From NCBI RefSeq assembly GCF_000515255.1, contig NZ_KI911559.1:3290693-3354692 (forward strand): DNA of 64,000 nt, in the 5' to 3' direction. The notes under the pieces were generated by a model. It worked only from the letters and a program-made list of their open reading frames with translations. It was not told where the DNA came from and ran no database searches. Positions 11,901 through 15,064 of the stretch are shown one piece after another. The position numbers and the translations under genes were made by a program. Source of the DNA: Rhodovibrio salinarum DSM 9154 (GTDB taxonomy: Bacteria; Pseudomonadota; Alphaproteobacteria; Kiloniellales; Rhodovibrionaceae). The number at the start of each line of letters is the position of its first letter. Positions within the stretch are counted from its first letter, which is position 1.

Positions 11901-12599
11901 ATGGCTCAGCCGGTCGATCACCCCTCCCCTAACCATGAACCGCGGCCGGACGGCGTGGCCGTCGATATCCTGCTGCTCCACTATACCGGAATGCTGACCG
12001 GCACGGCGGCGCTGGACCGGCTGTGCCAGCCGGAGGCCAAGGTTTCCGCACACTACCTTATCGAGGAAGACGGCCAGATCGTTCGCCTGGTGCCGGAAGA
12101 CCGGCGCGCCTGGCACGCGGGCGTCGCCTGCTGGGCCGGCCAGACGAACATCAATGACCGATCCATCGGGATCGAGTTGGTCAATCCCGGTCACGAGTTC
12201 GGCTATCGTGCCTTCCCGGAGGCGCAGATGGCCGCGCTGATAGAGCTGTCCCAAGCCATCCGCACGCGCCATCCCATCCCGTCCCACAGAGTCCTGGGCC
12301 ATAGCGACGTGGCGCCCGCCCGCAAGCAGGATCCGGGCGAGCTGTTCGACTGGCCGCGCCTCGCCGATTATGGCCTTGGGGTTTGGCCACAAGAGGTGGT
12401 GGAACCGTCCAGGCTCCCCGACCTCGAGTGGTTCTTGGCGTGCCTGGAGCGCGTCGGCTACTGCCCCAGTGCCGATCCCGCCATCCTGCTGACCGCCTTT
12501 CAGCGCCACTTCCGCCCTGAAGCGGTCACGGGCGCGCCCGACACCGCCACGGCCGCCCGCCTGACCGGCTTGCTGCAGGTTCTGGACCACGCAGGCTAG
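11901..12599 (+). CDS. N-acetylmuramoyl-L-alanine amidase (Amidase_2, AmpD/AmiD type)
   Basis: This 232-residue protein has the Amidase_2 zinc fold: LLLHYTGM near residue 26 (first zinc histidine), SAHYLIEEDGQIVRLVPE, AWHAG, SIGIELVNPG, then GHSDVAPARKQDPGELFDW carrying the second histidine and the last zinc ligand (Asp) followed by DPG. These enzymes cut the amide bond between N-acetylmuramic acid and L-alanine of the stem peptide. No signal peptide or lipobox is visible, which points to a cytoplasmic, AmpD-like role in muropeptide recycling. The last about 70 residues look like a peptidoglycan-binding-type helical segment. It lies next to the cell-wall cluster, with only rnpB between. Confidence 0.88.
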   Translation: MAQPVDHPSPNHEPRPDGVAVDILLLHYTGMLTGTAALDRLCQPEAKVSAHYLIEEDGQIVRLVPEDRRAWHAGVACWAGQTNINDRSIGIELVNPGHEFGYRAFPEAQMAALIELSQAIRTRHPIPSHRVLGHSDVAPARKQDPGELFDWPRLADYGLGVWPQEVVEPSRLPDLEWFLACLERVGYCPSADPAILLTAFQRHFRPEAVTGAPDTATAARLTGLLQVLDHAG

Positions 12600-12621
12600 C
12601 CCGATCCGACCTGTCGTACCG

Positions 12622-12676
12622 TCCCATGCCATCCCATGGGACACCATGGGACGCCCCGACATGGGATTTCATGGGA
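12622..12676. promoter_or_regulatory. Cluster of six TGGGA/TCCCA repeats upstream of rnpB (MraZ-box-like)
   Basis: Six copies of a 5-base word occur within 55 bases as three pairs, each pair with 10-bp period: TCCCA at 12622 and 12632, TGGGA at 12637 and 12647, and TGGGA at 12662 and 12672. The middle copies form the palindrome CCCATGGG. TGGGN-N5-TGGGN is the repeat bound by the MraZ repressor in Escherichia coli, and the same word is repeated at the mraZ promoter 0.8 kb away. The cluster ends 16 bases before the proposed rnpB -35 element. That the site binds MraZ is inference. Confidence 0.55.
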
Positions 12677-12692
12677 CGGCGTCCAAGTCCGC

Positions 12693-12721
12693 TTGCGCGA
12701 AGCCTCAGACTTGCTTACCTC
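12693..12721 (+). promoter_or_regulatory. Candidate rnpB promoter
   Basis: TTGCGC (12693-12698) and TACCTC (12716-12721) are separated by 17 bases. Transcription from here would begin near 12728, which coincides with the first base of RNase P helix P1 at 12729. The -10 box is a weak match, so the call rests mainly on position. Confidence 0.45.
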
Positions 12722-12728
12722 CGGGGTC

Positions 12729-13148
<420 letters not shown>

Positions 13149-13443
13149 GCTTTATTAGCGTCAATATTGATCGATTGTATTGCCCCTATTTGCGACGGAT
13201 AGGGGTGGCGCGCGTCATATCCACAACTTGCGGGACCACAAGTCGTCTACGGCCGCCCCAGGGCGCTGTGGAAGCAATCTTCTATGAGAACATAAGAGGA
13301 ACACCGTTCATGTGTCACATGAACTCGGCTGTGACCAGGTTGTGAAAGTCGCCGCCGGTCACTTGCGTCGAGTCGACCGAAAGGCATCGCAGCAAAGACC
13401 GGAAAATCCTTGATTTTAAGCTCTCCTTTACTTGGGCGGTGCA
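13149..13443 (+). other. Non-coding spacer between rnpB and the mraZ promoter
   Basis: No convincing gene lies in these 295 bases. It is locally AT-richer than its surroundings, especially 13155-13190 and 13270-13320. It contains one perfect 8-bp dyad, GTTCATGT (13306-13313) and ACATGAAC (13317-13324) with a 3-base centre, about 120 bases upstream of the mraZ -35 box, which looks like an operator rather than a terminator because no T-run follows. Short frames on either strand here lack ribosome binding sites and family resemblance. Confidence 0.5.
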
Positions 13444-13472
13444 TTGACACCCATATAGGCCCATGCTATCCC
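13444..13472 (+). promoter_or_regulatory. Candidate promoter of the dcw (mraZ) operon
   Basis: A perfect TTGACA (13444-13449) is followed after 17 bases by TATCCC (13467-13472), a 3 of 6 match to the -10 box. Transcription would start near 13479, giving a leader of about 80 bases to the GTG of mraZ. The spacer and -10 are themselves part of the CCCA repeat series, as expected for an autorepressed promoter. Confidence 0.6.
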
Positions 13473-13514
13473 ATGAAATCCCATGCAGGGCCATGGCAAC
13501 CCAATTAAAACCCA
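13450..13514. promoter_or_regulatory. MraZ-box array: CCCA repeats at 10-bp steps over the mraZ promoter
   Basis: CCCA (TGGG on the other strand) starts at 13450, 13460, 13470, 13480, 13500 and 13511, with a degenerate GCCA at 13490 keeping the phase; another CCCAT follows at 13531. Spacing of one helical turn between TGGGN words separated by 5 bases is the known MraZ operator layout (three copies in E. coli). Here there are six to eight copies, beginning directly after the -35 box and covering the -10 and the leader, which suits strong autorepression of the whole division and cell-wall operon. Confidence 0.75.
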
Positions 13515-13559
13515 GACCACGACGGCTGGGCCCATGGGACGCCACAAGGGGGTCGCCCG

Positions 13560-14033
13560 GTGCCGCAGGCATTCATTGGTTCCGCCAAGGCAAACAAAGT
13601 CGACCGGAAGGGACGCGTGTCCGTTCCGGCGGCTTTTCGTAAGGCCGTGGCGGGTCAGGAATTCCACGGCATCTACGTCTACGCCCACTACCTGCGTCCG
13701 GCACTGGTGGCGTTTGGTGAGGAGCGTATGGCGAAGTACATGAACGACCTGGAGGAACTGGACGAGTTCTCGGAGGAGTACGAGGAGCTCGCACAGGTCG
13801 TGTTCTCCGATGCCGAGCCGCTGTCGTTCGACGGCGAGGGTCGGATCATGCTGCCCAAGCACCAGATGGAACACGCCGGCATCGACGAGGCGGCGGCGTT
13901 CGTCGGCCGTGGCCTGACTTTCGAGATCTGGAACCCCGAAACCTATGCCGAGCAGCGCGAGGCCGCCCGCGAGCGCGCCGCGAAGAAGGGAATCGGGCCG
14001 AAGAAGAAGCAGAAGGTGGAGGCGGAAGCATGA
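13560..14033 (+). CDS. mraZ: MraZ transcriptional regulator
   Basis: This 157-residue protein has two SpoVT/AbrB-like MraZ domains: FIGSAKANKVDRKGRVSVPA at the N-terminus (the family DxKGRxxxP motif) and LSFDGEGRIMLPKHQMEHAG near residue 90 (second copy, DGEGRIMLP). MraZ forms rings that bind TGGG repeats and represses the dcw operon, and its own promoter carries such repeats. The start is GTG at 13560, preceded by AAGGGGG about 10 bases upstream; no ATG fits. The C-terminal 20 residues are lysine-rich. The stop overlaps the rsmH start by 4 bases (ATGA), so the regulator is the first gene of the operon it controls. Confidence 0.95.
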   Translation: MPQAFIGSAKANKVDRKGRVSVPAAFRKAVAGQEFHGIYVYAHYLRPALVAFGEERMAKYMNDLEELDEFSEEYEELAQVVFSDAEPLSFDGEGRIMLPKHQMEHAGIDEAAAFVGRGLTFEIWNPETYAEQREAARERAAKKGIGPKKKQKVEAEA

Positions 14034-15064
14034 TGGCGCGCGCCCCCGCCGACTCTCACCTTACGCCGCAGGCGACCCAGCCGGGCGGCCATGTCCCCGT
14101 CATGCTGGCGGAGGTGCTGGACGCGCTGCAGCCAGCCGACGGCGGCATCTACCTCGACGCCACCTTCGGCCTGGGCGGCTATGCCAAGGGTATCCTGGAT
14201 TCTGCCGCCTGCACCGTCTGGGGTCTCGATCGCGACCCGCAGGCGATCGCGCGCGGTCAGGCCATGACGGAGGCGGAAGACGGTCGCCTGCATCTCGCCG
14301 AAGGGCGCTTCGGCGCGCTGGACCGGGTTCTGGAAGAGCGCGGCGTGGCCCCGGTGGACGGCATCGCGTTCGACTTGGGGGTGTCCTCTCCGCAGTTGGA
14401 CGTTGCCGAGCGCGGCTTCTCTTTCCGCTTCGACGGCCCGCTCGACATGCGCATGGGATCGGATGGGCCGACCGCCGCCGATGTCGTCAACGAGCTGGCG
14501 GAAGGCGATCTGGCCCGGATCGTGCGCGACTACGGCGAAGAGAAGAAGGCCCGACGAGTCGCCCGCGCGATCACCCAGGCCCGCGGCGACAAACCGATTC
14601 AACGCACCGGCGAGCTGGCCGAAATCGTGCGCGGCGCCGTCGGCCACGCCAGGGGCAAGGCGAAGGCGCACGAGATCGATCCGGCCACCCGCACCTTCCA
14701 GGCGATCCGGATTTACGTGAACGACGAGCTGGGCGAGCTAGAGCGCGGCCTTGCCGCGGCCGAACGCGCGCTTAAGCCGGGCGGCCGGCTGGCGGTAGTC
14801 TCCTTCCACTCGCTGGAGGACCGCGCGGTCAAACAGTTCCTACGCACCCGCAGCGGCGACGTCCCACGGGCATCCCGGCACAGCCCCGACCCGGACCCGG
14901 CGGACCGGCTGCCGGAGCCGACCTTTCGCGTTCTGTTCCGCCAGGCCAAGAAGCCGCGAGCAGACGAAGCCGAGACCAATCCCCGGGCACGTTCCGCCCG
15001 GCTGCGCGCCGCCGAGCGCACGGCCGCGCCGGCCTGGGCCAACTTCGAAGAGGGCCGGGCATGA
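14030..15064 (+). CDS. rsmH: 16S rRNA (cytosine-1402-N4)-methyltransferase RsmH
   Basis: This 344-residue SAM-dependent methyltransferase (formerly MraW) N4-methylates C1402 in the ribosomal P site. Diagnostic features: GGHVPVMLAEVLDAL near the start, YLDATFGLGGYAKGIL (SAM-binding motif I), VWGLDRDPQAIA (motif II acidic residue), GIAFDLGVSSPQLD, RGFSFRFDGPLDMRM, and LKPGGRLAVVSFHSLEDRAV near residue 250. Length is slightly above the usual 310 because of a proline-rich tail. The start overlaps the mraZ stop and the stop overlaps the ftsL start, both by ATGA, implying translational coupling. Confidence 0.96.
   Translation: MMARAPADSHLTPQATQPGGHVPVMLAEVLDALQPADGGIYLDATFGLGGYAKGILDSAACTVWGLDRDPQAIARGQAMTEAEDGRLHLAEGRFGALDRVLEERGVAPVDGIAFDLGVSSPQLDVAERGFSFRFDGPLDMRMGSDGPTAADVVNELAEGDLARIVRDYGEEKKARRVARAITQARGDKPIQRTGELAEIVRGAVGHARGKAKAHEIDPATRTFQAIRIYVNDELGELERGLAAAERALKPGGRLAVVSFHSLEDRAVKQFLRTRSGDVPRASRHSPDPDPADRLPEPTFRVLFRQAKKPRADEAETNPRARSARLRAAERTAAPAWANFEEGRA

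Follow-up and report, generated by a model that had tools for sequence, protein, structure and literature searches.

The CATGGGA boxes clustered directly upstream of the RNase P RNA gene (rnpB) of Rhodovibrio salinarum DSM 9154 are probably, at odds of about two in three judging from sequence comparison, a second MraZ operator that was recruited to the rnpB promoter in the genus Rhodovibrio. We infer from the boxes that MraZ is the binder, and likewise that it would regulate rnpB and with which sign. If true, this reading connects tRNA maturation with division and wall synthesis and shows a regulator gaining a new target beside its own gene; the inverted box layout would also test how a ring-shaped MraZ recognizes DNA. 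Arrays of MraZ boxes are already known, and what is new, in the literature searched, is the inverted array at rnpB. Such an array was not found in the open-licence literature, a body outside which most subscription journals lie, and the listings of the same literature gave no study of MraZ binding at rnpB.

Layout of the array and its surroundings

The stretch analysed, hereafter the window, comprises 64,000 nucleotides of contig NZ_KI911559.1. The array lies between an ampD-like N-acetylmuramoyl-L-alanine amidase gene (11901-12599, plus strand, Pfam PF01510), which is upstream of it and reads in the same direction, and rnpB (12732-13149, plus strand, class A RNase P RNA, Rfam RF00010, 287.9 bits), followed on the same strand by mraZ (13560-14033, Pfam PF02381) and mraW (14030-15064, Pfam PF01795). 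The predicted rnpB promoter (12693-12721, plus strand) is composed of TTGCGC (12693-12698), 17 nt and TACCTC (12716-12721), with hexamers and spacing identical in Rhodovibrio sodomensis. Among the relatives, the best-scoring rnpB -35 starts with TTG in 50 of 51, under a scoring that favours TTG. The weak -35 (TTGCGC) was considered as a sign of activation, an argument weakened by one relative (G002) that has TTGCGC and no array at rnpB.

The initial annotation had described six TGGGA/TCCCA words arranged as three pairs of exact 10-bp period, and the sequence bears this out: TCCCA stands at 12622 and 12632 and TGGGA at 12637, 12647, 12662 and 12672, giving the pairs 12622/12632, 12637/12647 and 12662/12672. 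Equally accurate were the 16-bp gap between the end of the array (12676) and the start of the proposed rnpB -35 (12693), the recurrence of the word and its 10-bp period at the mraZ promoter 0.8 kb downstream, and the orientation of the pairs, which run both ways at rnpB and one way at mraZ. The shared word is longer than had been noted, namely the 7-mer CATGGGA, with six copies in 55 bp, and each pair has a 3-nt internal spacer, which is the 7+3 spacing of the mraZ operator.

The first two pairs build one dyad-symmetric unit, the core operator (12622-12651, no strand assigned), which reads TCCCATG-N3-TCCCATGGGA-N3-CATGGGA, has its dyad centre at 12636.5 and is conserved in R. sodomensis. It contains four boxes, two per direction: CATGGGA-TGG-CATGGGA on the minus strand (12622-12638) and CATGGGA-CAC-CATGGGA on the plus strand (12635-12651), overlapping at the central palindrome. 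An additional direct pair, CATGGGA-TTT-CATGGGA, follows at 12660-12676 on the plus strand. Their scores with the weight matrix described below are 16.6, 17.2 and 25.5, respectively, the last being the second-best in the window. At mraZ, the promoter/operator (13444-13485, plus strand) combines TTGACA (13444-13449) and TATCCC (13467-13472) with CCCAT boxes at 13450, 13460, 13470 and 13480, all in one orientation and extending from the -35 across the -10.

Frequency of the boxes in the window and the genome

The rnpB-side cluster is beyond chance. Forty first-order Markov simulations of 64 kb yielded at most three TGGGA and two CATGGGA per 60 bp, versus six observed in each case. Nine of the 11 CATGGGA copies of the window fall within 12622-13539, six of them on the rnpB side, two in the mraZ array and one at 13533. 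Across the 4.18-Mb genome the exact pattern TGGGA-N5-TGGGA occurs six times (three at rnpB, one at mraZ, one inside ampD at 12272 and one at a small ORF elsewhere), and its reversed control once. The longer pattern, CATGGGA-N3-CATGGGA, is found without mismatch four times in the 4,176,524 bases, three at rnpB and one at mraZ. Allowing up to two mismatches gives 17 matches and two for the reversed control; eight of the 17 are in the rnpB and mraZ arrays, and just one of the nine lying elsewhere has a single mismatch. By this criterion the genome has two arrays of the CATGGGA-pair type, one on each side of rnpB.

The ampD pair at 12272 was considered as a member of the array and rejected, since it is within coding sequence and missing from R. 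sodomensis, and it is treated as chance. The sole exact TGGGA pair outside the window (G000:C1:1455950, L031:1501 in our labelling of genomes and loci) covers the start codon of the small ORF.

Relation to the mraZ operators of the order

Concerning the relatives, a mraZ match was obtained in 54, of which one (G049) was left out because its contig offers 49 nt ahead of the match, leaving 53. In the 400 bp before mraZ, 48 of these 53 carry a CCCA-N6-CCCA pair and 47 have three in a row, all in one orientation except for one pair in G027; the operator of the order is mostly TTGACACCCAT-N4-TCCCATGATATCCCA or close to it. The five relatives with no such pair in these 400 bp (G008, G009, G016, G021 and G029) include four of one family (f8), and MraZ control may have changed in them.

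A weight matrix was derived from 144 pair sites in the mraZ upstream regions of the 53 relatives (48 with sites), Rhodovibrio being excluded; as the training sites were picked by CCCA-N6-CCCA, a match to the matrix in the period and in the TGGG core follows from their selection, which is not so for a match in the neighbouring bases. The six best of the 127,962 window positions on both strands are three at mraZ and three at rnpB, with scores of 30.6, 25.5, 23.4, 19.6, 17.2 and 16.6, followed by a coding site with 12.9. The latter, at 14450 in mraW, was discarded: it is coding (M-G-S-D-G-P here), and its recurrence in R. sodomensis (L139:3897, score 12.2) is likely due to coding constraint.

The rnpB array has the CATGGGA word and the 7+3 spacing in common with the mraZ operator of the order, but the latter consists of at least three boxes in one orientation, from the -35 across the -10, whereas rnpB has inverted pairs upstream of its -35. 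The genome encodes MraZ, with one match in a protein search, and the four PDB sequences matched by this protein are MraZ proteins (1n0e and others).

Conservation in Rhodovibrio sodomensis

The closest record in the genome collection is R. sodomensis DSM 9895 (L139), whose MraZ is 92% identical over 150 residues. In the alignment of the core operator all 24 box bases are kept, as against one of six spacer bases, the other five being changed, and four flanking bases per side (ACCG and CGCC) are common to both species. The ampD-rnpB spacer around it has diverged and altered in length, and aligning the two spacers without gaps gives at best 25 matching bases in 30, compared with a maximum of 21 in 300 shuffles that preserve base composition only. 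The retention of 24 of 24 box bases next to the change of five of six spacer bases points to the footprint of a selected site, so that selection on the boxes is indicated by one sister species. The mraZ operator behaves alike: its first 60 bp differ by five substitutions, all of them outside the four CCCAT boxes. The two Rhodovibrio species thus combine invariant box bases with variable spacers at the core and at the mraZ operator alike.

The R. sodomensis ampD-rnpB spacer (L139:1816-2079) is about 220 bp longer than that of the window and shows, by eye, an inverted repeat near L139:1891-1943, so that the operator was retained through a remodelling of the DNA around it. The third pair (12660-12676) is within a 22-bp stretch that is absent from R. 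sodomensis. Between the dyad and the -35 lie 56.5 bp in the window and 34.5 bp in R. sodomensis; the difference, 22 bp, is near two helical turns, which is suggestive, phasing not being informative with two species.

Distribution among relatives

The survey covered 58 genomes including R. salinarum itself, and rnpB was found in 55, with no match in G010, G032 and G043. The region upstream of rnpB could be counted in 51 of the 57 relatives, G036 and G056 (fragments only) and G017 (4 nt upstream) also falling outside the count. The initial annotation had named a lack of conservation upstream of rnpB in close relatives, with the mraZ array conserved, as one result that would refute it, and the outcome is divided: the core is kept in R. 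sodomensis and the third pair is missing there, while none of the 51 relatives of the order, two from other genera of the same family included, has a TGGGA pair in the 250 bp upstream of rnpB, yet most keep the mraZ array. The best score in these 250 bp among the 51 is 9.9, from a single TGGG-N6-TGGG pair in G029, and the next is 3.1; the G029 score is far below those of the window sites, and this genome lacks a pair at mraZ.

The inverted composite CCCA-N6-CCCATGGG-N6-TGGG is present in one of 385 genomes of the class and one of 61 of the order (overlapping samples), the sole genome being that of the window, where it occurs at rnpB and a second time within an ORF in another part of the genome. 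This second match (G000:C1:2929977, L177:1501) lies in a minus-strand ORF of 642 aa (969-2897), whose product resembles, on inspection by eye, a membrane subunit of NADH dehydrogenase, and was taken as chance.

The proximity of rnpB and mraZ is old: the two genes are at most 700 bp apart in 44 of the 49 relatives that have both on one contig and strand. Judged from these sequences, the rnpB-side operator looks like a Rhodovibrio innovation in an old neighbourhood; the alternative, loss elsewhere, would need many events.

Proposed mode of action

The proposal that the cluster is an MraZ-type operator thus stands as far as the 7-mer and its period, the matrix match and the sister-species footprint are concerned, and is weakened by the third pair and by the 51 relatives. 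The array has the box of about 7 nt with a GTG/TGGG core at a 10-bp period that characterizes MraZ boxes. It departs from the three- or four-box series in one orientation, with two tandem boxes per unit in both orientations, and from the location at the mraZ/dcw promoter, being upstream of rnpB and 0.8 kb before the mraZ promoter. On these two counts it is a variant, which probably works like an MraZ operator. The working unit would be the 30-bp inverted core, where one tandem pair per strand shares the central palindrome, and the third tandem pair, nearer the promoter, would be an addition in this species. MraZ would bind just upstream of the rnpB -35, roughly from -107 to -53 with a transcription start taken to lie about 8 nt downstream of the predicted -10, and once bound may adjust rnpB initiation, which would place RNase P RNA and the division and wall operon under the same regulator.

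With 16 bp between the last box and the -35, MraZ would sit off the promoter, unlike at mraZ. A regulator bound upstream is expected to activate, or to repress via bending or looping. Because the boxes are outside the promoter core, activation or modulation of rnpB by MraZ is slightly favoured over simple occlusion. In Mycoplasma gallisepticum, MraZ has an activating role. Outside dcw, ftsEX of Corynebacterium glutamicum is a target of MraZ, which resembles the present case in that MraZ acts at a second promoter and differs in that ftsEX is a division gene, while rnpB encodes a ribozyme for tRNA processing.

MraZ is very widespread among bacteria, and the targets described in the text consulted are within the dcw cluster (PMC7761207, PMC8475190). 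The B. cenocepacia protein binds a fragment with four 7-nt repeats lying 3 nt apart (PMC7761207); its site, like that of the E. coli protein, is found downstream of the -10 (PMC7761207, PMC8475190). According to PMC8475190, MraZ acts as a repressor both in E. coli and in M. genitalium, and its overexpression leads to more FtsZ in M. gallisepticum. With the mraZ/dcw operators of E. coli, B. cenocepacia and Mollicutes (PMC7761207, PMC8475190), the rnpB array shares short repeats with a GTG core, and with that of B. cenocepacia in particular the 7-nt repeats and 3-nt gaps, presumably read by the same kind of binder; it is unlike them in its position upstream of the rnpB -35, its two orientations and its overlapping central palindrome.

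Several points speak against an MraZ operator at rnpB. The MraZ sites described in these papers are longer direct series than two tandem boxes per strand, and MraZ is called a repressor in the cases described there. In addition, conservation of the core rests on one sister species while none of the 51 relatives shares it, and the RNA strand of the rnpB-side array could fold as a hairpin.

Alternative explanations

Unlikely, though still credible, is that MraZ bound at this site mainly tightens the control of mraZ, acting as an auxiliary dcw operator either through a DNA loop that joins the two arrays and encloses rnpB, or through an effect on transcripts that arise at rnpB or further upstream and run into mraZ. 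This would agree with the only two arrays of the type found in the genome flanking rnpB, and with a crude scan of the plus strand (12550-13600) in which no terminator-like site appeared. In PMC8475190, complementation by mraZ in M. genitalium is reported to succeed only in cis, which would fit an operator very near mraZ. From the dyad to the mraZ -35 there are 807.5 bp in the window and 790.5 bp in R. sodomensis, distances whose 17-bp difference does not correspond to whole helical turns. Moreover, among the 44 relatives with mraZ within 700 bp of rnpB, 43 are readable upstream and none of them has a TGGGA pair, although they share this proximity. A more elaborate form of the bridging suggested in the initial annotation, where a ring-shaped MraZ oligomer joins the arrays and encloses rnpB in a 0.8-kb loop as one switch for RNase P RNA and the division and wall operon, we regard as improbable, even if upstream boxes facing both ways would suit the docking of an MraZ ring.

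Dyad symmetry is typical of the sites of dimeric regulators, and the symmetry of the core would fit a different protein that reads the inverted CATGGGA, a protein that sequence alone cannot name. Such an operator is quite improbable, since the word, the period and the flanking preferences match the mraZ operators of the order and the genome has no other such array; the protein would need to read the code of the mraZ operators.

Very improbable is an RNA or terminator element, in which the inverted repeat would give the ampD transcript a 3'-terminal hairpin. The folding calculations are in its favour: the stretch 12615-12690, which includes the third pair, gives a z of -2.82 with two of 200 shuffles as good, and the R. 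sodomensis stretch a z of -3.28 with one of 200. However, the plus strand shows no terminator-like site, the G+C-rich hairpin with a T-run behind it that would make an intrinsic terminator for ampD. By eye, the spacers that face each other in the symmetric fold of the core are unpaired save for one A-T in R. sodomensis, and they have changed without compensation, with no stem-like co-variation; the third direct pair and the one-orientation mraZ array with the same word also go unpredicted. Finally, while the unconserved coding pair in ampD illustrates that single pairs can arise randomly, a chance or low-complexity accident is a negligible explanation for the array in view of the simulations, the genome-wide counts and the R. 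sodomensis footprint.

Other elements upstream of mraZ

Three further elements concern the region upstream of mraZ, two of them surveyed in 55 genomes (the 53 relatives, R. salinarum and R. sodomensis). A direct repeat, GAAC-N7-GAAC, is at 13288-13302 of the window and occurs 208-397 bp before the mraZ match in 45 of the 55, versus 0.4 expected by shuffling, the reverse orientation GTTC-N7-GTTC being found in none. It resembles the alphaproteobacterial LexA (SOS) box, and such a box would place the division operon under DNA-damage control. TTAA-N7-TTAA, a CtrA-type site, is carried within 400 bp ahead of mraZ by 34 of the 55 genomes versus 0.5 expected by shuffling, and is missing there from both Rhodovibrio species. 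A perfect palindrome, GTTCATGTG-T-CACATGAAC, spans 13306-13324 between rnpB and mraZ; it is a possible site for another regulator and is kept in R. sodomensis, where the central base alone has changed.
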